A stretch of DNA of 64,000 bases from Hansfordia pulvinata (Eukaryota > Ascomycota > Sordariomycetes > Xylariales): assembly GCA_006538405.1 (NCBI GenBank), contig BJKQ01000022.1, positions 1-64,000 of the forward strand, read 5' to 3'. The number at the start of each line of letters is the position of its first letter. Positions within the stretch are counted from its first letter, which is position 1. The notes below the pieces were generated by a model. That model was given only the letters and a program-made list of their open reading frames with translations, searched no databases and was not told where the DNA came from. Positions 1 through 51,573 of this stretch are shown in pieces. The translations under genes were made by a program, and so were the position numbers.

Positions 1-2048
1 GTTGGAATGAATGAATGGCAGAACGAGACGAGACGAGACTACCAGAGTCTTGGTGGTGAACAGGGCTTAGGAGAGGAGAAACGGAATAGACAAGTGTGCC
101 TATCGAAGAGCTGTCAGGTCAAAGTGAGCCGCCCCAGCTCTCTTATGGCTTCAACTATAGCAGCTTGTTCCCAAAAACAATGGGGCGCATACTGTCAAAC
201 AGAATAGAAAAAAAAGGATCGCAGGAGGACCCCGGCCAGGCAGACATCGTAGCAGTTCAGCTCAGCTGCTCCCGGGATCCGAGCCCCATCGCCCACACAC
301 TCACCCCCGCCCTAACGCGACGTCTTCTCGAAGACCGGGATTATAAAGATCTCACAGTCCTTGGCTGAAACAGACAAGCCAAAAGGTCGGCTGGAGCCCG
401 GGCGGCCAGACCCTGGCAAGTCCAACAACAAAGTGCTGATGATCGCCGCCCCATAACGGGGGAGGGATCTCTCCGTTGCGATCCTTCCCGATGCAAGATG
501 CGCATGGCCCTGGCGCCCTGCTCGTTATTAGCAATCCGCAATGTCGCCTCCTGCGCTCATGACTAACGGCCGAGAGGGCCGCGGCCTCTCATCTGTCAGC
601 CTCCACACGTGTGGCTGCCCTACGACCAAAGGGGCAGGTCTCGCAGTCGAGGCTCGGTCCAGCATACTCGTGGCTCATCAGAACCGACCAGGCATAGAAC
701 CCTGCTTCATTCGAATGTGAGGACCACCGAGTCCATTCATCGAGAGCCAGGCTTGATCAAGCCAGGCAGCCGCCAGTTGTGTTTCGACCCCGGTGGCTCT
801 GCAAAGTGAAAGACAAGGGATGCCTGAGCGGCGGAGGGTCTCCAAGTTGGCTGGAACGATGCTTTCGTCTCCAACGTGGTGACCTTGTGAGGAATATGGC
901 CTGGGGTTTGTCAACTAGTTAGCAACGAGCACGACGGTCCTGCCACTCCCTGCCGATCTGGCTGCTTCTGACTGACCCCAGCGTGCCGAGAACCTATAAC
1001 AAGCCCCTGCTGCGAAAATTGGAAAGGGGCAAAGCCAGTGACAGCAGCCCAAGGCAGCAACGCGTTTCGCCCCCTGCCCCTGGAAAGATCCACGGCCGTC
1101 ATAGTCCGTTCCCTGCACTATTCGAGCCGCACTTATTGACAAGCGACACCAGCTTGCATGTCGTGTCTTGTCAATCAGAATGCACAAATATCGCCGAAGA
1201 CTACCTGAGGTAGGTCCTCGGTCTAGAAGTCTCATCGCAGCTCCCCAGCAATATTTATCGTAGCAAGGGCTGCATAGATGCTACATTGACAAGGCTTGCT
1301 CATCGCTCAGCCTCATGTCACACTGCCACCGCAGACACCAATTGAATAAAGTCACGGGAGCTGGCCGTACCTGTTGCACCTCCAATCGCCTCTCAATTAT
1401 GCGCCGGCGGTCTCTCTATGATCATATATTGTCAATAATACAGTCCGTCTCATTGTTTCCATCCACATCTTCGAAAACTCAACTACAAAGCGGCGTCTCG
1501 CCCTTTTCCCAGCCATCTCTCCGCCGCCGACTTCGCTGCGGCTCAGCAAAACCCGCAAGCCATGCGCTGCTCCTCGGCCGAAGTTAGTTTCTAGCTGCCT
1601 CACCCCGTAAGCGTCGAAGATAAGACGGAGGCTATTCTGTGAAGTGCTGTTACAGTTGCTGCCAGCCGCCGAGAGGCACTTTTGTGCCTCATAGAAGCCA
1701 ATATCAAAATACACAATCCCGTGGAACCATTGGGAATGGCTCAGCCCAGAGTTTGCTTCTCTCCTCCCTCCTCCTCCAGAGAGGGGCGGGGCCATGCAGG
1801 CTCACGGCGCTTGTTGTCCCTCCCTTCCGCGGCGCTCAGCGGGCTGCTGCCTTGACGCTTGGGCGGGTCTTGGGCGGGAGTTATCGTAGGGGACTGTGCG
1901 ATGCGTGGTCAGCGTCTTGTCGAGCACCATGTCTTGCGACAGGCAAGGAGACCTACCGGATGCCACAGGGGTCGTGCGACTGTGCTCGCAGAGATTTCTG
2001 GGCGTAAGGCTTCAAGACACTCTCTCGCCGTCCATCGCATGCGACTGT
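1..2048. other. no supported gene; 5' flank of FHA-kinase copy A
   Basis: This stretch is of mixed composition. Short open frames occur on both strands, but none shows a recognisable domain, signal peptide or plausible intron-linked exon chain. It includes the 3' flank of the minus-strand kinase that ends at 2049. I see no tRNA, repeat array or transposon end in it. Confidence 0.5.
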
Positions 2049-3508
2049 TCATCTTGACAATCTCCCAAGAATCTCATGAAGCTTTCGACGCTTTTTCGAA
2101 AACCTTTGCCCCTCAGGCTTCTTGTTGTCGTTCTCCAAACAGAACCTGGCCATGTCTTTGAGTTTCTCACAATAGGCCATGGACTTCACAGACGAGCCTA
2201 CCTCCCGTTTTTTCAGGGCCCCTGGATAAACCAGCTCGCAAAGGACCAGTCCCAACGACCACATGTCAACCGGGTAGCTGTACTGTGGTGGGTGGCTTGG
2301 GTATTGGAACCTGGCGTTGCGCAAACCGATGGCCTTGATTTCCGGCGCTTGGTATTCCGGCGTACCCTCGCAAGTATTACCAGACTCCTTGGTAGCCAGT
2401 CCAAAATCGCATAGCTTGACGGAGATGCCGCCACCTTCCGGCAGGCGATGAGCCACCAGTATGTTGTGGGGCTTGATATCGCGATGAATGATCTTGCACT
2501 GCGTGTGCAGATGGTCTAGGGCCGAGCTGCACTGATACAGGACCTGCAGACACTCTTCTTCGGTCAGAGGAGAGCTGCTGCTCGTCTGCGCCACCTTCCA
2601 GAGATCCCCCTGTGGAATGTATTCCGTAAAGAGTCCGAAGTGGTTCCACTGGTAGCTGCGCTCCACAAACGCGAATGTGACAATGTGATCCTTGGTGGCC
2701 ATAGAAGTGTCAGTTGCGGAGCCTGCCTGCAGAATGGACAAGAGCACGGGACAGGGAATGGGTCGATATGGAGGTCGCGCCGCCAAACTTACATGTCGAA
2801 TATCTTTCAGCATTGCAGCTTCCTTTTCCAACAAGTTCATATGATGGTCTATATTGCTGCTCTTCTGAGGTGTTTTGCAAGCAAAGATCTTGGCTTTGGT
2901 CACATGCACGACGCGGCTTACAACGCCGAAGCCACCCTTGCCAACCTCAGAAAGAGGCACAAGACGATCGTCTTCCGAGATGAGGGGGGAGAATTCCCGT
3001 CGGCGAGACCAGCGGTGCTCTCGCACTGGCCCTGTCGTTCCAGGAAGTCTTCAACCTTCTGGTTGTAGGTCCCTGAGTCCATGCCGCTGAACATGGGCTG
3101 AATGTCGTACTTGACCTGCCCGGCCATCTCGACAATGACTTTGGGCAGCATGTATGCACTGTCGCGAACTGCAAGCACCCATTGGTGAGTCGATTCTTCG
3201 GGGATCTCGTCGCCTTCGTACAGGACTCTTATCTTGTGCGTCGGGCTGAGGTCTCGCAAGACCAGTCGGTATTGGTTGTCATGCTCGCTCCGGGCGAACG
3301 TGATTGCGCAGTGATATTCACTGCAGAGATGGAAACTGGGTAGAGTGATAGAGCAACGAGGAGAACTCCCGAATGTGAACCCTTCAGACCTTATGAGATC
3401 ACTATTGAACTCCAGCTTGTGGGTTTCGTTTCCGGCTGCGCTGCGTCCCCCCTCGTCGCCGAATCGTGTGACCAATGCGATCAGGTCATGTTTCATTGAG
3501 GCGGACAT
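2049..3508 (-). CDS. FHA-domain Ser/Thr protein kinase, copy A (one-base frameshift)
   Basis: The predicted protein is about 452 aa with an N-terminal FHA-like phosphopeptide-binding domain (about residues 35-100) and a C-terminal protein kinase domain. This is the FHA-plus-kinase architecture of Rad53/Chk2-type kinases, although the biological role is unknown. Visible kinase landmarks are the glycine loop GKGGFGVV, the ACK lysine, HRDIKPHNIL, DFG, the APE-equivalent APEI and DMWSLG. An intron at 2792-2691 (GTAAGT...AAG) sits between ILKDIRH-like and DHIV residues and matches an intron at the same place in copy B. The ATG at 3508 (MSAS) aligns with the MSAP start of copy B. The FHA frame and kinase frame differ by one base. 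They join if one more C is read in the C6 run (plus-strand G6 at 2984-2989), giving ...NSPP-LISE..., which aligns with copy B. It could be a real lesion or an assembly error. Confidence 0.8.
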
Positions 3509-4595
3509 CTTGAAAGTTAGAGAATCGAGAACTCGGGACTCACCATGTGGCTTCATCCAGGGAAGCCCAGGAAGGCCGTGGTCGATCGCGCTTAAGTATT
3601 GAGCGGGGAGAGACGACTTCCGAGGAAAGTTCGCAGGAGATTGTAGGATAGGTTGGTCAAAGAGGACGGGCAAGCAGGTACAGGTTCCCCTGCCGCTTTT
3701 TTCACCGTCATTCACGTCGCCTCGCATGATCGTAGCAAACAAGCCATGATGGGATTGTAGCTTCACGAAGTGGAGCTGTGTCCTGCTCGTAAATAGCTCA
3801 TGTCAGCGTCGCACGGCAAGGTATGGTATGTAGGTAGGCAGTTTGCCAACGCGTGCCGTCAGGCTTGGTTTCCAGTCTCAGGAACAGACGTGGGCTGCCC
3901 TTGTCAATCCACCCGAAGCAATCGAGCCGTCTGCATCGTTACGGGTCCGCGGGTCGTGCCCGGTAGTATCAAAGAGGGCCCCTGGGGCCTGTGGCAAACA
4001 CCATGGCGTCTAAAGCCCTGAGAAGGTATATCCAAGTGTGCTTGCGGAGAGGGAACTTTGCTCCCTGGCCCTGGATCCACGTCTTTCTGTCTGGACGAGA
4101 ACAAAGACGAGACGGAGGCCATTGGGAAATCCCGAACGTTGGGCTTTCGAAACAACCCGGCAAACCACGACGGCTTTACGACCTGCCCGATTGCAGCCCA
4201 TGTTCGAGCCAACATAACAGCGTAATTGTAATAGGCCCGTGGTCGACGGCGACGAATGTCGGTCTGCCATTGTCGCTGTCGCTGGCGCTGTCTTCGTATC
4301 TCGTCTAACGGACGGTTGGGTTGGTGAGTCAGGTTGGTGAGTCAGGTTGGTGAGTCGGGTTGGTGAGTCGGGTTGGTGAGTCGAGTTGGTGAGTCGACGA
4401 AGCCGCCAAGGCAAGCAGATACAAACAGGCAGGCAAACAGTTATTAGGCACGGGCAGGCAATCAAAAAGGACGGGCAGGCACGCAGAGGGGCAAGCACAC
4501 AGCACATGAAGGCAGCGGCCCATGTATCTGTACCTTATATGTAGGTACCATGTAAGGAGGCAAGCAGGCAGGCACGTCCGTTGCATAAAGGCCAC
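3509..4595. other. intergenic, upstream of FHA-kinase A, up to the transposon
   Basis: No gene is supported here. The stretch holds the promoter side of kinase A, a 13-bp tandem array (4319-4396) and a GGCA/AGGCAGGCA-rich tract just before the transposon target site. Confidence 0.5.
4319..4396. repeat. 13-bp minisatellite, six copies
   Basis: Six head-to-tail copies of GGTTGGTGAGTCR run from 4319 to 4396. The last unit begins AGTTGG. The variable position is A in the first two units and G later. The array lies 200 bp outside the left end of the large RIP-mutated transposon. Confidence 0.9.
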
Positions 4596-4601
4596 ACAGT
4601 C
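4596..4601 (+). repeat. target-site duplication, left copy (ACAGTC)
   Basis: The hexamer ACAGTC directly abuts the left terminal TACGG of the inverted repeat. The identical hexamer in the same orientation directly follows the right terminal CCGTA at 15049-15054, as expected of a 6-bp target-site duplication. Confidence 0.85.
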
Positions 4602-6560
4602 TACGGCGGGCGATAGGCGTCACTATGTTAAAACCCATTAATCTCACTTTACATCCACCCCTCGCGTGGTAAGAGCCGTACCTATTAATAATAACACCTT
4701 AGTAACCAGCTGCTTAACCCATTGCACTTAGCCCTTTTAATTAAGCACTTATAAAAAATTCCTTTACTTAACATATTATTAAAACCACCCTTATAATTCT
4801 TTACTTCTTACCTTTATCTTTAAGTTCTTAATACCTTTATTATAAGAATATAGCTTTTTTATTTTTATCCTTATGCTTTCCTTTATTTATTTTAGCCTTA
4901 ACTTCCTTATTATTAAGGTCTTAAGATTTATAAGATTATTTAAGTATTTAATTCGGTTAATTAACATCGCGCTTAAAACCCTTATATTAACTTAAGATTA
5001 TTATAACTTTACTTAATATCACGGCCTTAATAACGACTTATAATATATATATAAAGAATAAGGATTTTATATAATAAAGACCGTAATTTAATAACTTTAT
5101 TAAAAGAAAGCTTTACTTATTTATTATATTATTAATAAAGTTAAAAAGGATAACTTATATATAATACCGACTTTAAAGATCTTAATTAAAGTCTTAAATA
5201 TAAAATTTAATATTATAATTAATATTATTTATTAAAATAAGATAAATACTTAAGGCCTTAATTAATAATTATTAATTAACGGTAATAAGTTATTAAACGT
5301 ATAATCGTTTTTAAAAAGTATTAAGTTAAGGATAATAATATATAAAGACCTTAAAGGTTAACCGATAAAAAAAAGCTTAAGTTATTATTTATTAAGCTTT
5401 TATTTTAAATCTTATTAATATAAAAAAGGATTATAATATTTATATTAAAGATAATATTAAAAAAGCCTTTATTAAGTGCTTTTTTTTAAAAAGAAATATA
5501 TAAGTAACGCTTATACTTATTATTATTATATTAATAATAATTATAATTACTCGTATAAAAGCGGTAAATAAAGAACTTTTAATAAATAAAGCTATAAAGA
5601 TATATGTTTTTAATAAATAATAAGAATTTATTAATAAAAAGAAATTTATTAAGGATAAAAAGAAAAAGAATACTTAAGTCTTAAAAGAGGTCCTTTATAA
5701 GGTTATTAATAAGTAATTAAAGTAAACCGTATAAGAGATTAAAAGTAAGATTAAAAATCGTAACGCGATCGTTTATAAAAAGGAATATAAGGTTAAATAT
5801 ATTAAGTGTCTTAATATTTAAGCGCCGATATTAATAATAAGAATTATAAATCGATTAATAAAGCGTATTAATAAAAAAAAAGAGTTAAAAATTAAATACT
5901 TAATTACTTTATAAATTATAAAGAACCGTATTAAAAGCGCTTAATATATTTTGAATATTTAAAATTAATATTATATAATAAATTAAAATTATTATAATTA
6001 AAAAGTTAAACTTATATAAAAGCGTAAACGGTTACGTTAAAATAAAGTTATAAAAGCGGTATTATTAAGGTCCGGTTAACTTAAATAAAGTTAAAGCTTA
6101 AAAGATAATTATTAATAAAAAGAAAAAGTCATATTCTTATTAAGTTATTAAGGTTATTAAAGCGCTTATAACGGTGATTAAAAGTTAAAAGGGATAATAA
6201 AGATAAATAAGTTAAATAAAAAGGTAAAAGGTAAAAAGGGTTAAAATAAGTTATTAAAGGTTAAAATAAGTTATTATTACTTAACCGGTATTAAAGGGTT
6301 AATATTAACTTAAATAATATAAAGATATTATTAATATAAACGCGTTAATATAAATATTAAGCTTACGTTTATTATAAGTATACTTACGACTTAATATTAA
6401 AAAAGGTTTAATAACTCTTTAATATTTTAATTATTATTTTTATATTTTACTTTACTCTTTTTATTTACCCTTAAAGCCTTTATATAATATTTAATTTCTT
6501 AACTTTTACTTTATTATTTAAGATATTAAATAAATAACTTAAAGTCGATTTTAATCCGTT
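4602..6560 (+). repeat. left terminal inverted repeat (about 1.95 kb)
   Basis: This arm pairs with the reverse complement of about 13090-15048. The outer 38 bp differ from the other end at five positions (offsets 6, 15, 24, 28, 35), and all five are transitions. Farther in, the arms still align by eye without large net indels, for example around 5900-5960, 6061-6300 and 6420-6500. The inner limit is approximate because mutation erodes the match. Confidence 0.82.
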
Positions 6561-9500
6561 AAAAAAGTGGATTTACACGGAATATAATTCCGGTTTTATT
6601 ATTCCTTTTATTTTATTTAAAATTAAAGATAACTCCTTTCTTTTTATCTCTTAATTAACCTTAATTTATAATCTTTATTAATAAGGTAAGGCGGCACGGT
6701 AATTATAAATAAAATATTTAACCGCCTTATTTAAAAGCATTTAATTATAATATTTTAAGATTAATTTAAATAATTAAAAGCTTTTACACCTTATAAATTA
6801 AATAAAGTATTTTATATCTTTATAAAGCGTTAAAATTATTAAAAATAATTAAGTTTATTTTAATAAATAAATTTAAATTAAATCGAAGAATACTGTTAAT
6901 AACTTTATATATTTTTTAAGATACCGTCACCGATTTAAATTTTATTTTATAATTAAATAAAAAGTAATTACGTATATACTTATAATATTAAAATCTTTAA
7001 ATTTCTTAAGATTTAATAATAAAGGTTTACCGCTTTTATTATTCGGATTCGATTTATAAACGCTCTTTAAGTTTACGTTATAAGCGAGGCGGTTAAACTT
7101 ACTTTAAACCGAATTATATTTAATTATTAAATAAATATTATAAGTTAAGTTATTTTAAGATTTAAATTTACGCGGTTATTAATATATATTTATGATTTAT
7201 CCTTTAATTTTATATTAAGTATTTTATATATATAACCCGGTTTATACTTATATAATATATATTAATTATTAAATATATTAAAATATATTATTAATTAATC
7301 GTTTAAATCGTGAAGTTAAAACCGTACTTATTACCGGTGCTTATTATTAATTATTTTAAGGTATATAAAAGTAATAAAAAAAATTCTTATACCGTGATAA
7401 AAATGGAAAGCTTTTATTAAATATAAATTAAGATAAGTTATTTATTAATTTATTCTTTTAACCATATTATAAACCTTTTTAATAAGCTTAATCTTTTTTA
7501 CTTAAAACTTATACCTTTAATAATAAAATTCTTAATTATAAAGATTAAGACTTTTTAAATTAACGGTTCGTTTATTTGTATAATTTAAGTATTATAAATT
7601 AAAGGATTAAAAGTTAATAATCACGGTTAAATGATAATAAATCGATTATTTAATAAGTAAGTTTTATTCTTTATTCTTTTAATAACTTAAGCTTAATATT
7701 AATTTTATACTTTAAGATTTTTTTAATTAATTAAAGGTTAAAAGCCTTTAAGTATTAAACTTTATTTTAAACCGTATTATATTATTATTTATTTATATGC
7801 CTTTAATTCGTTAAGAGTTTTTTAATTTTATTTAAAATAAAATATTTATTATATTCGGCCTTAATATAATAAGCCGTATATTTATTATAATAAGCTTTAA
7901 ATATTATACTTTATACTTAACCCTTTTTAAGCTTAAAGTTATAAAGTTTAATATAATTTAAAACGGTTAAAAGAATTAAAACGAATTATAAAATTAAATA
8001 ACGTCTTAATAAACAAATACTTATTAATAAGTGTTATAAAATTATATAATATATTACTTTTTATATTCACTCCTTTAACTTTTTAATTAAGTAATATAAG
8101 TGTATTTTACTTAAAGTTAATTAAGTACATGTTTTTATAAGATAAGTTAAGATCTTATTTTTTATTAAAAAAGAGCTTATTATTTCACTTTTCCCCGCGC
8201 TTATTAATAATTAAAATTACTTAAAAGGGTTATTATAAGAAGATAAAATATCTTTAAACGATTTATATAATTATTAAATATTATTTATATTTTTATTTTT
8301 ATTTTTATGTTAATATTAAATATATTCGTATAAGAATTATATAAGTAAAATTACTTTTATTAAATTTATATACTTTAAATTATAAGCTTTATATTATAAT
8401 TATTATTAATATATAATTTTATAAAATGTTTTTAATATATTTTTTAAGGCTTTAAATTAATTTAATACGTTTATTATTTTATTATATATAAATATATATA
8501 ATTATAAGTTAATAAAAATAGTTTTTTTTAAAGAAAAATTTCAAAAATAATTTATAATATTTAATAATTTAAAAATTTATTAAAAATTAAATATTTTAAA
8601 AGTTAAAAAAATGTTTTTTTATTTCATTAAAATTAATATTTTATATATAAATTAAATATAAGATTTCTTTATATAAGATTATATAAACTTTATAAGTTAT
8701 ATAATACTTTTAAAATAATAAAATATATTAAAACCTTTTTTTATTTTTAAGTCTTTTAATAAATATTAATATTATTAAAATAAAGGAATATTCTTTTAAA
8801 GATATATTATAAAAAATATAAATAATAAATTTAATTATATAATTTTATTTAAATAAAAATAAATTAAAAAAATTAAAATTAATTGTAATTTACTTTTATT
8901 TACATATATTTATAATATTTTATTATATAAAGTAAAATAATATTTATTAAAAATATAATTAAAAATTACTTTTATATTATTAAAATAATAAAATTAAATA
9001 TAGATTTTAATTTATTATAATAATTTTATAAATAAAAATTTTTATATTAGTTTATAAATAAAAGGATAAAACTATTTTAATATATAATATATTAAAATAT
9101 ATAATAAATATAAGGTTTTTAAACTTAAATTTTATATTTAATACATACTTATAATATATTTATATAATAATAATATTCTTAAAAAAGGTTTTTAAAAAAT
9201 AACTTAAAGAAATGATTTTAAAAATATTAAATAAATAATCTTTAAAATATAATTTAAAAAAATTATTATTTTTAAGATTTAATTTTAAATAATATAATAT
9301 TTAAAAATAAATAATTAAAAATAAAATATAAAAATATTATAAAAGATTAATATTATTAATAATTAATATTTAAAAAGTAATACTTAAAAAATCTATATTA
9401 AAAAATAAATATTTTTATAAAAATATAAAAATTTATTTTTTAAAGAATATAGAAAATTAAGTTATAAAAGGATATTATTTTATAAAAGATATTTTAAATA

Positions 9501-9967
9501 ATATTAAAAAATATTTCTTTAATAAATATAAAAAATTAATATTAAAAAATATTATTAAAAAATGATAATTAATTAAAAATTATTTTAATAATATTTAATA
9601 TTAATATTAAAAAATAATATATAGTTTTTTAAAACTTTAATAAAAAGATTTAAATTAAGTTTTATTAATAATTTAATATAAATAAAAATTTTAATTATAA
9701 TTTTTTAAAAAATATTATAATTTAAATTTCATTTTATTATATAAAATAAGTTTAAGAATTTAAATTTTCAAGAAAAAAAAGCTTATTTATAAGTGAATTT
9801 TAAATAACGAAATAATAAGAAATATATTAAAATATTATATAAATAATAAGTAATTAATAAAAAGTAGTTTTATATATATTTAAATTATTTATTAAAATAA
9901 TAAATAATTAAATATATAAAATTTACTTTTTATATCTCTTTTTTACTTTTATTAAAATTATATTTTT

Positions 9968-10285
9968 ATTATTAATCGGACCTTTAAAAGAATTATTAAT
10001 TATATTATATAAAGTATAACGTTTATAAAAGGTAAATATATACGTAATATATAATAATATTAATATTACTTATTCTTATTATAATATATTATTTATAAAA
10101 CCGTATATAAGGCTTAATTAATATATAAGTTAAGCCGTAAAGGCGATTAATTTATTACTTATTAATATTATTTATAATTATTAAAATTAATAAATTAAAT
10201 TAAAATAAGCTTTATTTTAACTTATATAATTAAGCGTAAAATAAACACGTGTATAAAAGTATAATTAATAATTATAATTTAAATA
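9968..10285 (+). repeat. internal direct repeat, copy 1 (about 315 bp, LTR-like)
   Basis: This AT-rich segment contains a short island TTAATCGGACCTTTAAA followed by a TATAACG/AAAAGG block and AAGGCTTAATTAATATATAA. It recurs about 919 bp downstream in the same orientation with RIP-like differences. The pair encloses about 600 bp and looks like the long terminal repeats of a small, or mostly deleted, LTR element nested inside the large transposon. TG...CA ends cannot be confirmed after RIP. Confidence 0.7.
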
Positions 10286-10886
10286 TATTTAATATTTATT
10301 ATAATTATTTAAATAATTTTTTATTTATATATATTTTATTTTATAAATATTATTTTATTTATTATTATTTTAATAATAATATTACTTTCTTACTTTACTT
10401 TATATTTAAATTAATATATATATAATTAATTTTATATTACTTTATTTTATTATTATTATATACGTTTTTTTTATTTAATTATAATATTATAAAATTTTTT
10501 TAAAAGAATATTATATTTATATAATTAATTTATAATATAATTTTATATATTATAAATATAATATTATTTAAAAATATTATATTAAATAAATATAATCTTA
10601 TAATTATTATATTTATATATATATATATATTTATATATTATTTTAAAATATATTAAACCTTTATTTATATTAATTTAAGTTTTTTTCTTAATTTAATAAT
10701 TAAGTTTATAAAATATATAATATATAAAGTTATATTATAAGTAAGTATTTTATAAATTATAATTTTAAAGGTTTATATATTAAATAATACACTTATTATT
10801 TATATAAAAATTTAATTATTTAATATATAAAGGTTTATATAAAATTATTAAATAAGCTTTAATTATATATATATTATATTAAGGAT

Positions 10887-11204
10887 ATTATTAATCGGAC
10901 CTTTAAAGGAATTTTTAATTAAGCTATATAAAGTATAACGTTTATAAAAGGTGGATATATATATAATACGTGATAATGTTAATATTACTTATTTTATTAT
11001 AATATATTATTTATAAAGCCGTATAAAAGGCTTAATTAATATATAAGTTAAGCTGTAAAGGCGGTTAACTTAATACTTATAAGCACTGCTTACGGCCGTT
11101 AAGGCTAATAAATTAAGTTAAAATAAGTTTAATTTTAGCTTATATAATTAAACGTGTAATAATCGCGTATATAAGAATATAATTAATAATTATAATTAAA
11201 GTGT
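10887..11204 (+). repeat. internal direct repeat, copy 2 (about 315 bp, LTR-like)
   Basis: This is the partner of the segment at 9968-10285, at a constant offset of 918-919 bp along its length. This copy keeps more G and C, for example TTACGGCCGTTAAGG near 11090, suggesting it was mutated less heavily or on the other strand. Confidence 0.7.
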
Positions 11205-13089
11205 ATTTAATAAATATTATATTAAATAAAAGTTTAAATTAATATTATAATATATATAATAATACACTTATAATTAATAATACGATTTAAGTATTATTTT
11301 TTACTTACGATTTAATAATTATAAAAAGGTAAAATCTTACGACTTACCGGTTATTAAAAAGTAAAGTCTTAACCTTAATATAAAGTGTTAAGGATTATAA
11401 TTAATTATTTATACTTTATAAAAAGTATAATAACCCTTTTTTTTTATATAAATAAAATAATTATAATTAAGTAATATAAAAAGGACGGACCCTTTTATAT
11501 TAATAATTTACTTATATATATTATTTTAAGCCTTATTTATATTAAGTATAACTTTATTATTTATATTATATTAAAAATATATTATAACTTAAATATTAAG
11601 TTTTTTATTTTAAAATATTCTTTATAAAAAAGCACTTTTTAAAGAGTAAACTCCGCTTATATTAACTTAAAATCTTAACTTAAATTACACGTTTCCGTTT
11701 TCTTTAACTTTTTATTAATTTAATTAAAGGTTTAATATCTTAAGTTAATATCTTTAATTTTTCTTTTTAAGTTTCCGAATTTTATAAAATAAAAAAAGCG
11801 TTTTTAATAAGGGATAAATTATATAATTATAATTTATTATTAATTATATCTTTATAATTAATAATATTAAGATTTAACGATTAAGCTTAAGGACTTAATA
11901 TTATACTTAAATAATTAAGTAAAAGGGATAAAGATTTAACTTAAGTAATAAATAATTTATTACTTAATAAAAAATGATTATTATTCTTAATAAAGGTATT
12001 ATTTAATTAATTTAATAATAATTCCTCTTTTAAAGTGTTTATAATTTTAAGATCTTTAATAAGGTTCTCGGTTTTTATAATTAATAACTTAATAAAAAGC
12101 TTATTTTTATTAAGGATAACGGCTTAATAAAAGATTGTTTTTATTTTTTATAAAACTTCCGGTTTTAATCGAGTAATAAGTGTAAAAAGGGAAAATAATT
12201 AAAAGAAAGGGAAGTCCGTAAAAGACTTAAAAGCGGTGTTAAGGTTAAAAGGATTTAATATTAAAGTTAAAGATCTTTATACTTATTTCTTATTTCTTTT
12301 TTTAATTTTTTAAGCCTTATCTTTTTTAAGGTCTTTTAAATAATAAGAAATAAGATTTAAGTATATTAAGTCCTTTTACTTTTTATAATAGCCTTTAATT
12401 AACTTTATTAAGGAAATAAGTTTAAAGTTAATATATAAGTAAAGGTATAAACGGCCGCCTTTTATAATTATAATTTTATTAAAGAAAGTGAAAGTGTAAT
12501 CTTAAATTTTAAGCTTATATTATAATAAATTATTATAAAAGCGGTTTATAATATCTTAAATAAGGTCTTATTAAATTAATAAAGATTTATTAATAATAAA
12601 GTTAACACCTTAAATAAAGGCTATACGTATAAATCGTGTAATAATCTCTTTAATAATACTATTAAATATAATACGGTAACCGTAAATTTATTAAAAATAA
12701 AAGTTAACTTTTTAAGTAAAAGATTTTTTCGGTTATTAAGTGAATTAAATGCTTTTTTTCCTTTTATTTTATATAATATTAATAGCCTTATTAAGGTTAA
12801 ATAATTAATAAAGCGTAATAATCGATACTTAACTTAATAAGCTAGATTTTAAAAGTGTAAAATAAGATAAAAAGGATATCTTTTTTTTAAGGTTTTTTTT
12901 TAAGGTGTTTTAAAAAAGGGTAATATTATTATTATTTAATATAATTTTATAAACTTTAACCGTTTTTATAAAAGGTTTAATTAAATTTTAAAAAGTTAAG
13001 GCTGTTTTATAATAAGGGTAAAAGCTTATATTAAGATAAGCCGCTTTTAATAAGGTATAAAAAATACTTAATATAATATAATTACTCTT

Positions 13090-15048
13090 TTAAGATTTAA
13101 CTTAAGTAAATATAATTAATATTAACTTTATAATAATAAAAAAGAAGTTAAAAATTTAAGTATTATATAAAGGCTTTAAGGGTTAAAAAGGGGAGTAATA
13201 TAAAATATAAAAAAGATACTTAAAATATTAAAGAATCGTTAAACCCTTTTTAATATTAAGTTATAAGTATACTTATAATAAATATAAGCTTAATATTCAT
13301 ATTAACACGCTTATATTAATAATATCTTTATATTACTTAAATTAATATTAACCTTTTAATACCGGTTAAGTGGTAATAACTTATTTTAACCTTTAATAAC
13401 TTATTTTAACCTTTTTCGCTTTTTACCTTTTTATTTAACTTATTTATCTTTATTATCCTTTTTAACTTTTAATCACCGTTATAAGCGCTTTAACGACCTT
13501 AATAACTTAATAAGAATATAACTTTTTCCTTTTATTAATAATTATCCTTTAAGCTTTAACTTTATTTAAGTTAATTAAACCTTTATAATACCGCCCTTAT
13601 AACTTTATATTAATATTATTATTTACGCCTTTATATAAGCTTAAGTTTTTAATTATAATAACCTTATTTTATTACTTAATATTAATCTTAAATCTTTAAA
13701 ATATATTAAGCGCTTTTAACACGGTTTTTTATTCGTTTATTTTAATATTAATACTTAAATATTAATTTTTTATATTTATAATCGTGTTATATAAGAACCT
13801 TATATATCTTTTAAGTTTAAGTTAACGTTAATATATCCTTTTTACACTTCTTTTTAAAATAACGCTTAATCTCGGTGCCTTTAACCTTATAACGGTTTTA
13901 CTTATCTTTAATTAATTAAAGCCACTTCTTTAATATAACGATAATTATACGATTATAAATATATATAAGGATCTTTTAAAACTCTTTTATCTTTTCTTTA
14001 TATTTTCTTTTTAATTTTACTTATATTAATCTTTATACTTTTAAATTAATAATTTAATTTTTATAATTTAAATACCTTTACTTACCGCGGTAAAGTAAGT
14101 AATACTTCTTATAATTATTATAAAAATAGCTTAAATAAGCACTTTTAAACTCGTTTTTTATAAATATAAGGTAAATATTAAAAAGCCTTTAATAAGTAAC
14201 TTTAATATAAGTGTTATAGCCTTTATAAGCCTTTTTTATATTTAAATTAAAAATAACGTAAACGAATACGTTTAATCGGTAATATCCATAATATTTTAAG
14301 GTTAAGTAAATTATTTTACTTTTAATTATAATTATTTAAATATAATAAAAGCGTTTAACCTTTTATTATTATTAATAAATTATAATAAATTTAAGCTTTA
14401 ATATACTTATATTATTTTTATTTATAAAATTATAAATTATCACGATTCTTAAGTTATAAACTTAATATAAAATAAATTAAATCTTTTTCTTATCGTTTAT
14501 ATCGTTATCTTATTTATTAAATAATTATAAAAGCGGTTAATTATTATATTTAAGACTTTTATAAGCTTTTTTAATATTAATTTAAAAGCCGTTTACCTTT
14601 TAAATTAAATCGTTAACGTTAAAGGGGTTAAAGAGTAAAGTATATAAATTAAGAGCCGTGGCCTTAACTTAATTTCCGTTTATTATAATAATTAATTAAG
14701 ATAAATAATAAAATAATAATATAAATATAAAGACCGTAATAATTATAAAGCTATTATTAAAATAAGTGTATAAGGATAAGTGTATAAAGATAAGAAGGCT
14801 TTATTCCTTAATTAAAGGTAATAAGAACTTTATAATAAAGTTAAGAGGTTTAAAAATAAGAGTATAGGTTTAATATTGTTTTAAATAAAAGAATCTTTTA
14901 TAAGGTGGTGGCTATTAAGGCCAGGTTAAGAGGGTTAATTAGCTGGTTACCGGGGTTACTTAATTGTAAGGTTTACTTTAAGTAAGCCCTAGGTGGTGTG
15001 TGTATGAAAAAATAGGTTTTGACACAGTGACGCTTATCGCCCACCGTA
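13090..15048 (-). repeat. right terminal inverted repeat (about 1.95 kb)
   Basis: This is the inverted partner of 4602-6560. The strongest local matches are 13230-13600 against 6050-6420. The AGCTGGTTAC at 14941 mirrors GTAACCAGCT at 4702. It ends in CCCACCGTA, followed directly by the ACAGTC duplication. Confidence 0.82.
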
Positions 15049-15054
15049 ACAGTC
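15049..15054 (+). repeat. target-site duplication, right copy (ACAGTC)
   Basis: Identical and co-oriented to 4596-4601, and immediately outside the right inverted-repeat terminus. Confidence 0.85.
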
Positions 15055-15946
15055 CCGCAATCTAATCCTATCGCAGCCGCGCGCGTGGTACCTATAATCT
15101 CCGACCCGACAGCGGCTGCACAGTGCTGACTGTGCCAATGGCGCGGCAGATCCCCCAGCTTCTACATATTCCCATCTTTGGAGAAGCAGAGTAGGCGTTG
15201 ACAAGAACGTCGAGCCCAAAGGCCAGAGCTCCATCCGAATGAATAAAAGAAAAAGCTAAGCGAGTAGACTTTGAGGAGGGACTGGGTCTTTGAGGTAAAC
15301 ACAAAATCTGAAGGCAGCAGCAGCGATAGCCAACTTCTCGAAACTAGTGCTTCCAGAGGCGACCGCTTTAGCTCATGAATCATGTCGAATATTCAAGTCG
15401 ATATTAAATGACTGGCTCTAGGGCTATGTGTTTCCAGACTCGTAATGCTCAGGATCCTCTGAAGATCCCCGAGTGAAAATGTGCTTCCTGTCACCACGCG
15501 GGGCTCTCTTCAGTTGGAAGTAGTAGCCGGGCGTCCTCGCAATCTTTGCTGTCCAAATCGTTGCCGCCTCCTGACTCCCCGCTTCCGGAACCTCTCCGTC
15601 TCCGAGGGATCGCCTTCCCGACGTGGCTCATAATCTGGTCCACCGAGCTGAGAGATGCAACACAAATTCCAACGGCCGTGCCCTGCGGCGGAGTCCTGAT
15701 TTTGGGATGGTTGTCCTCGCTGGGACCCAATTTCGGACCTACCAGTTCCCGGGGAGGGAAAGCTATGGAGCCACATCCGATAGCTTCTGGTCGCCAGAAG
15801 GTCCCGGCCGTCGAGCGGAGGCAGTCGCGAACTTATATATGCCTATGACTCGTGGCTCTTAGACCCTCTTATATCCAAGGTCTCTAAAGCCTTCCTCTCA
15901 CGACCCTAACGCCCCTTTCCCCCTCTTCTGCCTAAAGATCCGGCTC
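15055..15946. other. intergenic, 3' side of FHA-kinase B
   Basis: GC-balanced sequence resumes abruptly at the transposon edge. Short frames on both strands show no domain and no linked splice sites. The segment probably contains the 3' UTR and terminator of the minus-strand kinase B. Confidence 0.5.
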
Positions 15947-19731: not shown

Positions 19732-22700
19732 ATGGAACCCATCAAGCGGGACCTAGTCAGGCTGATGAATCGGCGAAACGAGGATGTCTTCTTGGACCTG
19801 GATGCCATGATCACGTCGCCTCTTCAGCCACTTGTCTGCGACGGCCCCTTGAAGTTCGACCCTCGACTCGAAGCATTGGCCAGAGACGCCACAGCAGACA
19901 CTCGGCCCTACGAATACGAGAATCTTGAACAGCAGATGGAGCTGAGGTATGACCTACCACGCTGCTGATTCTCCATGGACATTCCCTGACAATGGGCTAA
20001 GGAACTACAATTCTGCGTATGGCACTCCGCGGAAACGGCGCGGCCACGAGATTCGATCGTTGCTGAATCCCAAGCTGCCAAACACATGGCCCCCTCCTCA
20101 ACCTCCAAGGTCCGACGTGGCCCGCGCCATCCGTGCTTTGCAGATCGCGGCCTCGTCTGGACGCCTAGCGCCAGCGGTGCTCAGGGAGCCAGAACCTGAA
20201 CCCCGTCGGCCCTGGGTCTCTGATCAGCCGCTTACCCCAGCATGGATTCCCCATCCCCTGGAAGAACGAAAAAAGAAGGATCGGGGGTACAAGGATCGGG
20301 AGTCCTATAGAGTGAAATGGCCTGGTCCAGGATGGCGCGGCAGTTTCTGTGACATCTGGAACACCGCAATCGATGAAAGCATATCTTGGAACAGGTATGC
20401 TAGCCTCGTCAAGCTGGGCGGGAGGCCCTGCTACCCAATTGCACTGCTGCCAATGGCGCGCAAGAACCCCGATGCTCTCAAGAAGTGGACGCAGCCCTGG
20501 ATCGGGCAGTGGGGAGGCGGGGACCAGAAACTGCTTAGAAACCCCTTTCACAACCAGTTGATGAGTTGGGAAGATTTCATCCGATGGCAGTTGAGGAGTC
20601 GAGGCTATTACTACGTGCATATGTATCCGGGGGACCCCAGTTTCCTGACTTTTTTCCATCGGGATTGGGGCTGCCGGTCGGCAATGTCCAAATGGCTTGG
20701 TTTGGGGGCTTGGTCTACTTTGAAAATCCGCCCCTTTCCAGAAGAGCAGGACAAAGTCACGACGTGGCTCGAATATCTGGCGTATAGCCGCGCTCTTCTG
20801 ACCTGGAGGGCTTATTGGTTGTCCTACCACGAACAGCGTCACGGCAGCGAACGCGATGAGGTCACCAGTCTCTACGACATCTTTGAGAAAAGCGACATGG
20901 CGCTCCTGGTCCCAGAACCACTGCCGCCGCGGGCTGGGCCCATTGACTCCCACGCCCCCCCACAGCGATGGACGGCGACTATTTTTCTGCAATACGTGGA
21001 AAGTAATGGAGCCAGTGCAATTGCTGAAAGCGAGTCGGATGCGAAGAGAAGATTCGGGGACAGATCAGCTCAAGTCGAGGATCTCCGGCGCACAGCCAGC
21101 ACACAGCCGGACGTTGAAGAACAACTGGCGCGGGCGAGGGCGGATGTCGCAAGGCTTCAAGAGGAGGTAGAGCTGCGCAACCAACTTTCCTCTGCCGTTT
21201 CGGCGTACTTGGACTCGAAAGACGCGTTGATAAGGGCAGAACAGGAGGTCTTCAGAGAGAATCTCAGACTCGAATGGGCCTGCGAGCAAAGCCGGTTCGT
21301 GAGAATCGAGTCACTGCAGCAGAGAGACCTCGAAGCCCAGCAAAATGCGGGTGATCCACGGGAGACCAACGAAGGCGACCACGAGCCTGGAGACCACCGC
21401 CCGAACCACCGAGAGCAATACGAATTGAACGATACGCCGGAGTTCGGGACCGAGAGTCACAGCGGCTTGCCTAATAGTGACATGGCCGCGGCCGTAGCAA
21501 TGCTCGTTGGTGTCATCCCGCCGTCCCCTGTCTATCAGCGCCCCGCGAGTGTGTCTCGGAGCGACTTTTCTCTCAACGACTTGACTCCGGAACACGAGTC
21601 TCCGGACGACGACTTTCCTGGCGACTGGTTTTCGAACGACGTGGATCCGGGAAATGTGGACCCGGGCGATATGCGTCCCGGCAACGTGGCTCCGGGCAAC
21701 GCGGATCCGAGCGAGATGGCTCCGGGCGCGGTGGTTCCGGGCACCGCGGCTCCGGGCGACGTGGCCCCGACGGGCCCCGACGTGGCCCGGGCGACATGGC
21801 TCCGGGCGACGTGGATCCGGGCGACGTGGATCCGGGCGACGTGGATCCGGGCGACGTGCCCCCAGGCGATGTGCATCCCGGCCCCATGGCTCCAGGCGAC
21901 GTGGCTCCGGGCGAGGTGGCTCCGGGCGCCCTGGCTCTGGGCGAGGTGGCTCCGGGCGCGGTGGTTCCGGAGGGTGTGGATCCCGGCTCTCTGCCTTTAA
22001 GCGACGTACCTCCGGGCGACGCACCTCCGGGCGACGTGCCTTCAGGCGACGTGCGTCCAGGCGACGGGCCTCTACGCGATGTGCATCCCGGCCCCATGGC
22101 TCCGGGCGCCGCGGCTCCGGGCGACGTGGCTCCGGGCGACGTGGCTCTCGGTGCGGTGGCTACGGGGGTGTGGATCCCGGCTCTCTGCCTCCAGGCGACG
22201 TGAATCCGGGCGACGTACCTCCACGCGCTCCGACTCCCGTGCTCGTGCCCGTGCAGGTGCCCACGCTCCTTCCCCCGCGCCGGAGCGCCCGCATAGCCGC
22301 CCAGCGCGTCGGCCGCATCGAAGGCGACGCCGCGCCTGCTACGGCGCCTGACGCGCAAGCCGCTGCCCCGAGGAGGAGCGCCCGCATAGCAGCCGCCGCG
22401 GGCAAGAGGAAAGCCGGAGACGAGCCGCAGGGCCCAAACAACGACGTCGAGCAGGCTCCGCCGCGGGAGATGAAGCGCCGCAAGACGAGGGGAGCGCCGG
22501 AGAGGCCATCGAGAGGTGCAGGCAGCGCGCCGACGGCGGCGAGGAAGAGGAAGGCCGAGACTGAGCCGCAGGCGCAGGCTGACGACGCGGAGAAGGCACC
22601 GCCGCAGGGGAGGAAGCGCCTCAAGACGAAGGGGACGCCGCCCGACGGGCAAGCTCTAGGCTCAGGCAGCGCGCCGCCGGCGGCGGCGAAGAAGAAGAGG

Positions 22701-49207: not shown

Positions 49208-51573
49208 ATGAAGCTTCTCAAACTGCCCTTCCGGGTGGGCAGCAGTGGACCTCCCTTCAACCCAGTTGTAAGTCGTTGTTGCCAGCAAAGAAGAGAGAAA
49301 AGGCCTCGACTAACCAGAGTGGGGGGCGTAGAGACACCCAAAGACAACCACCGCACCGCCGCTCCAGCCCCGTCGCCCTCGCCGCTCGGTTCTCGCCAGA
49401 TCCTTCAGTGTGTCTCCTCTCCTGCGAGACGCTTTTCGTCCCTCTCCCGAGCAGTTGAGGGTCGTCGAGCTCTGCCGCGACCACAACGTCGTCGTGTCTG
49501 CCCGGCCTGGGTCCGGCAAGACAGCGACCGCCCGGGCCATCGTCGAGGCCAACCCTGACGCCCAGATCGCCGTCCTGACCTACTCGAAGCGCCTGCAGCT
49601 CGAGACAGCGCGGCGCCTTGCGGACCACGCCGCCCACTGCGACGTCCTCACCTTTCACGGCCTGGCCAGGCGGCTTTTCGGCACGATTGTGAACAGCGAC
49701 CAGGCCCTCGGCGCTTTGCGAGAGGCCCGCGAACAGCCGCGGTGGGATGGGCGGCCGCACGATATCGTGATCCTGGACGAGATGCAGGACTGCACTTTGC
49801 CGCTGTTCTGGCTCGTCAACGTCTTCCTACGCGCTGTGGCGAGGTCCGCCTCCGCCCAGGGAAGCAAGGCGCCCCGGCTCGTTGTCCTCGGCGATGAGCG
49901 CCAGGCCATTTACGAGTACCGGGGCGCCGATTCGCGGCACTTGAGCCTGTCTCCCAACACTCTGCTCCCGGTGAGCCCGTATCCGTGGGCGCGTACGACT
50001 CTGTCCCGGAGCTTCCGGTTTCCGGAGACTATATCGAACTTCGTCAACCACGTCTATTTGGGCGGAGAGGAGTACCTACAAGGATTAGGCAAAGGCCCTC
50101 TGCCCATCTACCTGCACGAGGATATTTTCGATTCCAAGAAGCTTGCAGACTTGTTGGTGCCCTTGATTGAATGTCACGGACCGGAGCAGACCGCTTTACT
50201 GGCCCCCAGCGTCCAAGGAAACGGCCCCTTGTCGAGGCTCACCAATCATCTGGTCAGGGAATACAAATTCCCGGTGGCGAAGCCGTTTTCGGATGAGTCC
50301 GTGATGGACGAGAAGGTCATGAACGGGAAGATTGCCGTGTCCACATTCCACGGGTTCAAAGGCAGCGAGCGCTCTCTTGTCGTCGTATTCGGCATGGACG
50401 AAGCCTACTTTCAGTACCATGGGCGGGATTTGCCCCAAAACACCTGCCCGAACGCGATATATGTCGCCGTCACTCGCGCCAAGAAGCAGCTGGTCGTCGT
50501 GCAAGAGAAAGACAAGCGACCACTCCCCTTCGCCACGTTGCCAAAGCCGCGAAAACGCGGTCGGCTTCTGGAGTACCGTGGGCTTCCGCAACCTGAGGCG
50601 TGCAACACCAAATCTTCAAAGTCTCACCGAAACGGAGTCCATGCGGCAATTGTCGGGCGCCATTGTGACGAAGAAGTCCTGGGCCGTGTCATTGACGCGC
50701 ACTTGGTCATCGAGGAAGTCTCTCCCAGCCTGCCCCGCGACCAGCACATCGGCGCACCAGACAAGGTTGTCACCGATCCCGTCAAACAGCACTACGAGGC
50801 GGTCAGCGACATCAACGGGATGGCCGTCGTGGCTTCTTTCGAGTATGCGACGATGGGGACGTTGGGGAGTCTCGGGGGGTGGCCGCTTCTCACGATGTGC
50901 CGGAGTCTACGTACAGGCGAACCACGTTCCTCTGTCGCAAAGCGTGTCGGTACGAAGCTGTGACAAGCGGATATTATTCGCGCAACATCCAGATGCGCGG
51001 CCACAAGTACAACTGGTTGGTCCCGTATCTCGATTCTGCTACCGAGCGGCTCGGAGAGCGTTTGCAGCATGCCGTGAAATTCGAGCTTGAGGTTCATCTC
51101 ACCCAAGGGGTATTTCCAATCCAGCTTGAACACCCCGATCACCGAGTCATGAATGTGCCGCTCCAGGGGTTTGTAGACATACGCACTGAAGAGGATGGCC
51201 GCCCGGTCATCTGGGAGATCAAGTTTGTGTCCCAGCTCTCCCGCGAGAACTACGTCCAGCTGTGCACGTATGGCTACCTGCAGTGCTGCAGCAAGCACAA
51301 CGATCTCGAGGAGCTGTTCAAGAGGTTCGAGAGGGGGATGACGAGGCCCTGGCCGGGGTTGACGTGCCGGATCTGCGCCTGTTCAACGTGCGGGACGGTC
51401 AAGAGCTGAGGCTGCGCCCGAAGAACGGCGTCGCCAGCCTGCGCGCTGTCCTACAGGAGATCCTGATTGAGAAGTACAAGAGTAAGCGCCAGGTGACGAC
51501 CGAGGAGTTCCTCGAGGGCTGCGCGAAGGTGAGCGAGGAGGCCAGAACCTTGATCGAGGGTCGTGAGGCGTGA
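49208..51573 (+). CDS. UvrD-like SF1 DNA helicase fused to a PD-(D/E)XK (RecB-type) nuclease (two frameshifts)
   Basis: Exon 1 (49208-49267) and exon 2 (49368-51573) are joined by a 100-nt intron (GTAAGT...CTCCAG); the protein is about 755 aa. The N-terminus is Arg/Ser-rich (PRRPRRSVLARSFSVS) and may be a mitochondrial presequence. SF1 helicase motifs follow: ARPGSGKTATA (about 66), LDEMQD (about 158), GDERQAIYEYRGAD, LSRSFRFPETI, STFHGFKGSE and VAVTRAKKQ (about 386). The C-terminal part has the RecB-family nuclease signature: Asp in GFVDIR (about 621), WEIK (about 635) and a Q-x3-Y motif in QLCTYGYL (about 650). This is the helicase-then-nuclease order of RecB/AddA, the reverse of Dna2. One-base gaps occur in G6 at 50874-50879 and G5 at 51333-51337; reading one more G at each joins the helicase to the nuclease continuously. 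Exon 1 is the least certain part. Confidence 0.78.

Follow-up and report, generated by a model that had tools for sequence, protein, structure and literature searches.

A RIP-mutated transposon in Hansfordia pulvinata, most probably of the IS3EU superfamily, with a body probably inverted between insertions

What kind of transposon survives as a heavily mutated, AT-rich relic near the start of a Hansfordia pulvinata contig, and how did it acquire its present structure? We analyzed a window of 64,000 nucleotides (contig C22, positions 1 to 64000) from a genome assembly of 46.8 Mb in 63 contigs. The original prediction for this window was a complete transposon with exact ends and a 6-bp target-site duplication (TSD). 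That observation is confirmed: the element occupies positions 4602 to 15048 (10,447 bp), with terminal coordinates that sum to 19650 as proposed, and the predicted span of 4596 to 15054 takes in both TSDs as well. The hexamer ACAGTC adjoins both ends and occurs nowhere else between 4500 and 15100; arithmetically, the chance of a perfect 6-bp repeat at two given ends is about 1/4096. The 38-bp terminal inverted repeats (TIRs) agree at 33 of 38 bases, and all five differences are transitions. We consider it likely that this is a dead, RIP-mutated, IS3EU-type cut-and-paste transposon, situated between paralogous kinase genes, whose body was inverted between insertions. Features are listed in Table 1.

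Table 1. Coordinates of the element, its parts, and the neighboring kinase genes in the window
Feature	Position	Strand	Basis or remark
Left target-site duplication, ACAGTC	4596..4601	.	6/6 pairing with the right one
Whole element, RIP-mutated	4602..15048	.	Ends, TSD, dinucleotide ratios
Left 38-bp TIR, TACGG...	4602..4639	+	R/Y identity 1.000 versus right TIR
Outer left arm, type A	4640..5940	+	Common to Z-side arm on C5; R/Y 0.73 versus right
Left inner inverted repeat core (arm 1451-1790)	6052..6391	+	Near R/Y-identical in four arms
Body, ~6.7 kb	6487..13163	.	L end 6487, R end 13163; reversed with respect to the arms where the second insertion ends
AT core of body, GC 6-9% per kb	8001..11300	.	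Per-kb GC, repeat search
Possible coding trace, weak	11982..13181	.	R/Y 3-periodicity 9.2
Right inner inverted repeat core	13259..13598	-	Near R/Y-identical in four arms
Outer right arm, type B	13710..15010	-	Common to arm on C27
Right 38-bp TIR	15011..15048	-	R/Y identity 1.000 versus left TIR
Right target-site duplication, ACAGTC	15049..15054	.	Abuts right end
X-flank kinase gene	2049..3766	-	Split on C22 (open frames of 333 and 294 aa); one 601-aa frame on C5
Y-flank kinase gene, 573 aa	16247..17968	-	Best genome paralogue is the X-flank gene

The element has been silenced by RIP, the host's C-to-T mutation defense. Its TA/AT ratio is 1.28, versus 0.61 in window positions 15055 to 64000, and its (CA+TG)/(AC+GT) ratio is 0.19 versus 1.21, reflecting depletion of CpA and TpG; GC content inside the element is 6 to 19% per full kilobase. 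Both signs used as a test for RIP, C-to-T/G-to-A change and CpA/TpG depletion, were found. The claim that the element is heavily mutated stands, with low GC, CpA/TpG loss, and transitions all in evidence, and so does the claim that its ends are the least mutated part: each of the four arms that we compared has a GC content of 0.40 to 0.56 in its outermost 150 bp and keeps its CpA and TpG there, versus a GC content of 0.08 to 0.30 in the next 350 bp, where CpA and TpG drop likewise. The AT core contains a direct repeat (9967 to 10375 and 10886 to 11293, 76 to 88% alike, at a spacing of 918 to 919 bp).

A 22-base end pattern, searched genome-wide with up to three mismatches, matched five ends at three loci, all with no mismatches: the window and C5 (at 804707 and 815152) have two each, and the fifth is on C27 (at 169712). 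Reversed as a control, the pattern matched nowhere in the genome. A relaxed 14-mer search gave 22 matches (the five known ends and 17 with one mismatch), fewer than the 30 of its reversed control, and thus adds no credible ends to these five; our copy searches score the best candidates only, and further degraded copies may exist. The pattern had no match in the viral_contigs and genome_contigs collections, neither of which is fungal, so this carries little weight. Unmutated copies with the same ends had been suggested as a check; further ends do exist on C5 and C27, but the copies returned are all mutated.

Comparison of the loci exposed a conflict in the assembly. Window positions 1 to 9760 equal part of C5 (reverse strand) with no mismatches and 13 gaps of 1 to 2 bases (14 gap columns). 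The first mismatch falls at 9761, after which the contigs differ by ~2%, a figure that rises, mainly through transitions, until the arms change type. The left flank of the window copy (X; 4,601 bp) occurs twice in the assembly, and a search with 3,452 bp of the right flank (Y) found a single occurrence; the contig tail, window positions 1 to 4601, duplicates C5:815153-819761 but is eight bases short. Because C5 joins the same left half, with X, to a different flank (Z), either C22 or C5 is wrong or rearranged at this element. With W denoting the flank on C27, the flank hexamers pair as a TSD at 6/6 positions for X-Y, 5/6 for Z-W, 4/6 for X-Z, 3/6 for Y-W, 2/6 for X-W, and 1/6 for Y-Z. We read the five ends at three loci as two insertions, with Z and W the probable pair at the second, on the basis of five of six bases and elimination. 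No gene evidence for the Z-W pairing was found in the flanks examined, and open reading frames across the joined flanks gave nothing decisive for any pairing.

The genes flanking the window copy bear on which join is correct. Compared with the rest of the genome, the Y kinase matches the X kinase best, at 230 bits, and the next other locus scores 63.5 bits. The two proteins are 36 to 39% identical, versus 28 to 31% between the Y kinase and the 10 database matches listed, which were scored among the candidates sharing most words. Nine of those 10 carry FHA and kinase domains, and the species-named relatives (9 of 10 among the matches listed) are fungal, presumably filamentous ascomycetes, several of them Sordariomycetes. 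Flanks Z and W, examined over 10.2 kb and 9.7 kb, respectively, yielded no kinase gene of this kind. We conclude that the element appears to have split a neighboring pair of paralogous kinases, and since the kinases it split are best paralogues in the genome, the X-element-Y arrangement is probably genuine. The Z-X join on C5 we conclude to be a misassembly in the AT core or the product of a later exchange. For flank X itself, C5 is probably more accurate than the C22 tail, because the X kinase is open on C5 and split on C22. A TSD together with a split pair of paralogous genes can thus expose a wrong or rearranged assembly join.

Assignment to a superfamily came from the ends. In the available text of the cited papers, the TET-bearing fungal IS3EU elements of Pucciniales have a 6-bp TSD, TIRs of >30 bp, and ends of the form TAYGG..CCRTA (PMC12730594); in complete IS3EU families the termini are invariably TA..TA and the TSDs usually 6 bp long (PMC10045372); and IS3EU is the most abundant DNA transposon in Colletotrichum lupini (PMC11645255). 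Here, TACGG stands at all five ends found (the element reads TACGG..CCGTA), the TIRs measure 38 bp, and the TSD matches at 6/6 bases at the window copy, 5/6 at the presumed second insertion, and 4/6 at C5 as assembled. The element most probably belongs to the IS3EU superfamily, a known but little-studied group, as judged from these features. The original prediction had held that the long repeats, the length, and the 6-bp TSD fit no common fungal superfamily; this is not supported, as TAYGG..CCRTA ends with a 6-bp TSD are the fungal IS3EU signature in the published text available, and its interpretation as a whole is partly supported. A RIP relic of unclassifiable appearance has in this way been assigned to a named superfamily by its ends.

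Coding content could be read less directly. Six read-through frames (X at stops) of 4602 to 8100 and 11001 to 13100 gave no Pfam family and no transposase, which agrees with the prediction that no transposase is readable; RIP is too heavy for this null to exclude an IS3/IS481-like DDE transposase. A search of the genome for Alpha_kinase, a family seen in TET-bearing IS3EU elements, was empty, but so were its 14 controls. Besides the weak trace in Table 1, peaks of 3-periodicity in purine/pyrimidine (R/Y) class lie at 5382 to 5981 (10.7) and 14082 to 14681 (9.7), against a highest value of 8.8 in 30 simulations, for which the scan used a coarser step; these peaks may be a trace of genes. In five blocks without gaps, the differences between arm types A and B (described below) showed no dependence on phase (lowest p, 0.08).

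We compared the arms by R/Y class, because RIP makes transitions and such a comparison is blind to them, taking the best offset and expressing it as z versus other offsets. Left and right arms have an R/Y identity of 1.000 at arm positions 1 to 38, 0.79 at 60 to 400 (z = 10), 0.63 at 452 to 640 (z = 4.3), 0.73 at 750 to 880 (z = 4.4), 0.76 at 900 to 975 (z = 3.4), 0.67 at 1090 to 1340 (z = 5.8), and 0.978 at 1340 to 1880 (z = 17); over positions 1 to 1340, identity is 0.731 with seven gap events. The inverted repeat stops near arm position 1,885 bp, and no further inverted repeat between the two body ends was seen inward of ~1,885. The self-comparison proposed with the original prediction thus gave alignment above chance (z of 3.4 to 17 by segment), and the predicted 2-kb inverted repeats do align, but not as a single uniform repeat. 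On this R/Y evidence, the 2-kb arms are composite, consisting of the 38-bp ends, ~1.3 kb of old, diverged homologues, and a near-identical inner ~0.35 kb. The two arms of the window copy represent two old, diverged types, A and B. Purine/pyrimidine comparison is a RIP-blind way into the structure of such relics.

Four arms could be compared: A1 (window left, X), A2 (C5, Z side), B1 (window right, Y), and B2 (C27, W). A1 and A2 differ by 151 transitions and 2 transversions over 1,797 aligned positions, and B1 and B2 by 181 transitions and 4 transversions over 1,799. The inner repeat core (340 bp) has an R/Y identity of 0.997 in both A-B pairs. If the Z and W ends pair, each insertion has one arm of type A and one of type B. 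We rejected the idea that the middle of arm B is an inverted arm A, as the R/Y offset test gave collinear homology in the same orientation; base alignment was undecided, giving an identity of 0.764 (858 matches, 300 gap columns) for the same orientation, 0.775 (789 matches, 510 gap columns) for the inverted one, and 0.738 to 0.744 for three shuffles.

On a single contig in every case, all four arms can be followed into the body, and there the linkage changes. Outward of arm position 1340, A1 goes with A2 and B1 with B2. At arm positions 1850 to 2150, A1 and B2 share the L body end with no R/Y mismatch, and A2 and B1 share the R body end with one; A1/B1, A2/B2, A1/A2, and B1/B2 show 14 to 29 R/Y mismatches per 50 bp from 1900 on. 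The base letters agree: C27 at 1950 to 2160 matches the L end at 188 of 210 positions (1 transversion), and the Z side of C5 matches the R end at 195 (1 transversion); in the opposite comparisons the matches fall to 131 and 133 and the transversions rise to 20 and 35. The arm-body joins are A-L and B-R in the window insertion and A-R and B-L in the other. Since all four combinations exist, a recombination switch lies in the stretch from ~1450 to ~1850, over which the arms are almost fully alike. We reason that a single ectopic crossover of two like-oriented elements cannot yield all four combinations and that one body inversion can; recombination within the inner repeat probably turned the body around. 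Between insertions, R/Y identity of the body is 1.000 over 265 bp at the L end, 0.995 over 1,495 bp on the R side, and 0.995 with 11 gap events over a further 1,751 bp of the AT core, and the copies were therefore nearly identical at the time of RIP.

We propose that a DDE transposase, from the element or a relative, would have bound the conserved 38-bp ends and inserted the element at a staggered cut of 6 bp. Exchange between the inner repeats, by homologous recombination or gene conversion, would have inverted the body relative to the arms and, by the same process, kept the inner repeats alike; RIP then struck the near-identical copies while largely sparing the outer ~150 bp. A tentative extension, which we rate as possible but somewhat doubtful, is a transposon with an invertible body, in which unlike modules A and B share a common 38-bp transposase site and repeated flipping keeps the inner repeats alike; we infer the repeated flipping from one inversion and the likeness of the inner repeats. 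If this were true, copies would jump as either isomer, and body genes would adjoin A or B. No body inversion of this kind in transposons was described among the matches listed in a search of titles in the open-licence literature. Our data suggest that inner inverted repeats can be part of an IS3EU-like element and can bring about inversion of its body.

Several other explanations compete with this one. The window copy might be an assembly chimera in which the left half of C5 and the right half of another copy were joined in the AT core, making the A/B mix and the ACAGTC match accidental. The identity of window positions 1 to 9760 with C5 (no mismatch, 13 short gaps), the start of the contig just 4.6 kb outside the element, and the X tail, eight bases short with a split kinase frame, would all suit such a join. 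We nevertheless regard it as unlikely, given the 6/6 match of ACAGTC versus 4/6 for X-Z and 3/6 for Y-W, and given that the X and Y genes are each other's best paralogues across the 46.8 Mb; if C5 was misjoined or underwent a later exchange, these data are accounted for with no coincidence needed. The joins A-L, A-R, B-L, and B-R, each read inside one contig, are independent of the chimera question. By another account, there are two subfamilies, A/A and B/B, with a body in common; the genuine insertions would be X-A..A-Z (C5) and W-B..B-Y, and no inversion of the body would have taken place. C5 as assembled is indeed an A/A element, of 10,446 bp, and symmetrical arms are the normal state of TIR elements. 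Neither pair has a full TSD, however (4/6 and 3/6), the kinase pair ties X to Y, and symmetric two-sided replacement of arms around a near-identical body (R/Y, 0.995 to 1.000) is less simple than one inversion, which makes this account improbable in our view.

The remaining alternatives concern the nature of the element, and there is little to recommend membership in a different superfamily that makes 6-bp TSDs, such as Polinton/Maverick or hAT6, or in an undescribed one. Long inverted repeats are typical of Polintons, but at 10.4 kb the element is short for one. Polinton/Maverick elements carry genes for protein-primed polymerase B, capsid, and packaging; no Pfam family of any kind was seen in the scanned frames, whose sequence is heavily RIP-mutated. 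A 6-bp TSD, as found here, is reported for Polinton (PMC10045372) and hAT6 (PMC12730594) in the text available, but hAT6 is placed there among animal hAT lineages, and TAYGG..CCRTA ends are those reported for fungal IS3EU (PMC12730594). That the element is naturally AT-rich (for example, plasmid derived) rather than RIP-mutated is very hard to credit: the GC content of the core, 6 to 9% per kb, does lie below that of the rest of the element (16 to 21%), but same-type arm copies differ almost solely by transitions, CpA and TpG are selectively lost, and the edges keep a GC content of 0.40 to 0.56. The AT core may have been AT-rich already before RIP.

The IS3EU-type element inferred here can be set beside several known systems, as far as the available parts of the sources describe them. 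It shares with IS3EU the 6-bp TSD, the TAYGG..CCRTA (TA..TA) ends, and TIRs of >30 bp; the second inner repeat, diverged middle arms, and inverted body seen here are absent from the IS3EU descriptions in that text, and our element has no recoverable transposase. Styx of Zymoseptoria (PMC10853768) is IS3EU-related, with a 36-bp TIR, a TSD length of 6 with mismatches allowed in searches, a multikilobase consensus (7,927 bp), two TIR groups, RIP-like mutations in its copies, and, as a further likeness, copies near the breakpoints of a translocation. Unlike our element, Styx is shorter, is described with the 36-bp TIR alone, and has four open reading frames; Styx-like elements are reported in Zymoseptoria only (PMC10853768). 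Galileo of Drosophila (PMC4168063) has long TIRs, subfamilies that coexist in one genome, and ectopic recombination between copies that causes inversions, but it belongs to the P superfamily in an animal host, and its inversions are chromosomal rather than of the element body. The flip/flop region of Saccharomyces chromosome XIV (PMC9731477) likewise occurs in both orientations, tied to recurrent homogenization of a gene family, but consists of host genes without a transposon.

Other repeats and genes were noted along the way. Four AT-rich loci (C5, ~1,591,300 to 1,593,700; C9, ~1,985,900 to 1,988,300 and ~2,103,700 to 2,106,200; C18, ~445,100 to 447,500) are 90 to 94% alike over ~4.2 to 4.5 kb, with a ~2-kb core of mostly 2 to 8% GC in AT-rich surroundings that are probably RIP-mutated. 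Their core resembles the AT core of the element in composition; we rejected them as members of the same family, as they form a separate repeat family, and the one end region inspected was without these ends. On C27 (~171,870 to 184,800), past the B arm (~2.16 kb), lie ~13 kb of other AT-rich repeats, probably nested transposons; two of them, ~3.4 kb long and 83% alike, are inverted relative to each other. Within the window, an array of 15-bp units at 21546 to 22210 begins inside an open reading frame (19949 to 22000, plus strand) and possibly encodes a five-residue protein repeat, and an open reading frame at 49410 to 50963 carries UvrD/AAA_19 helicase domains.
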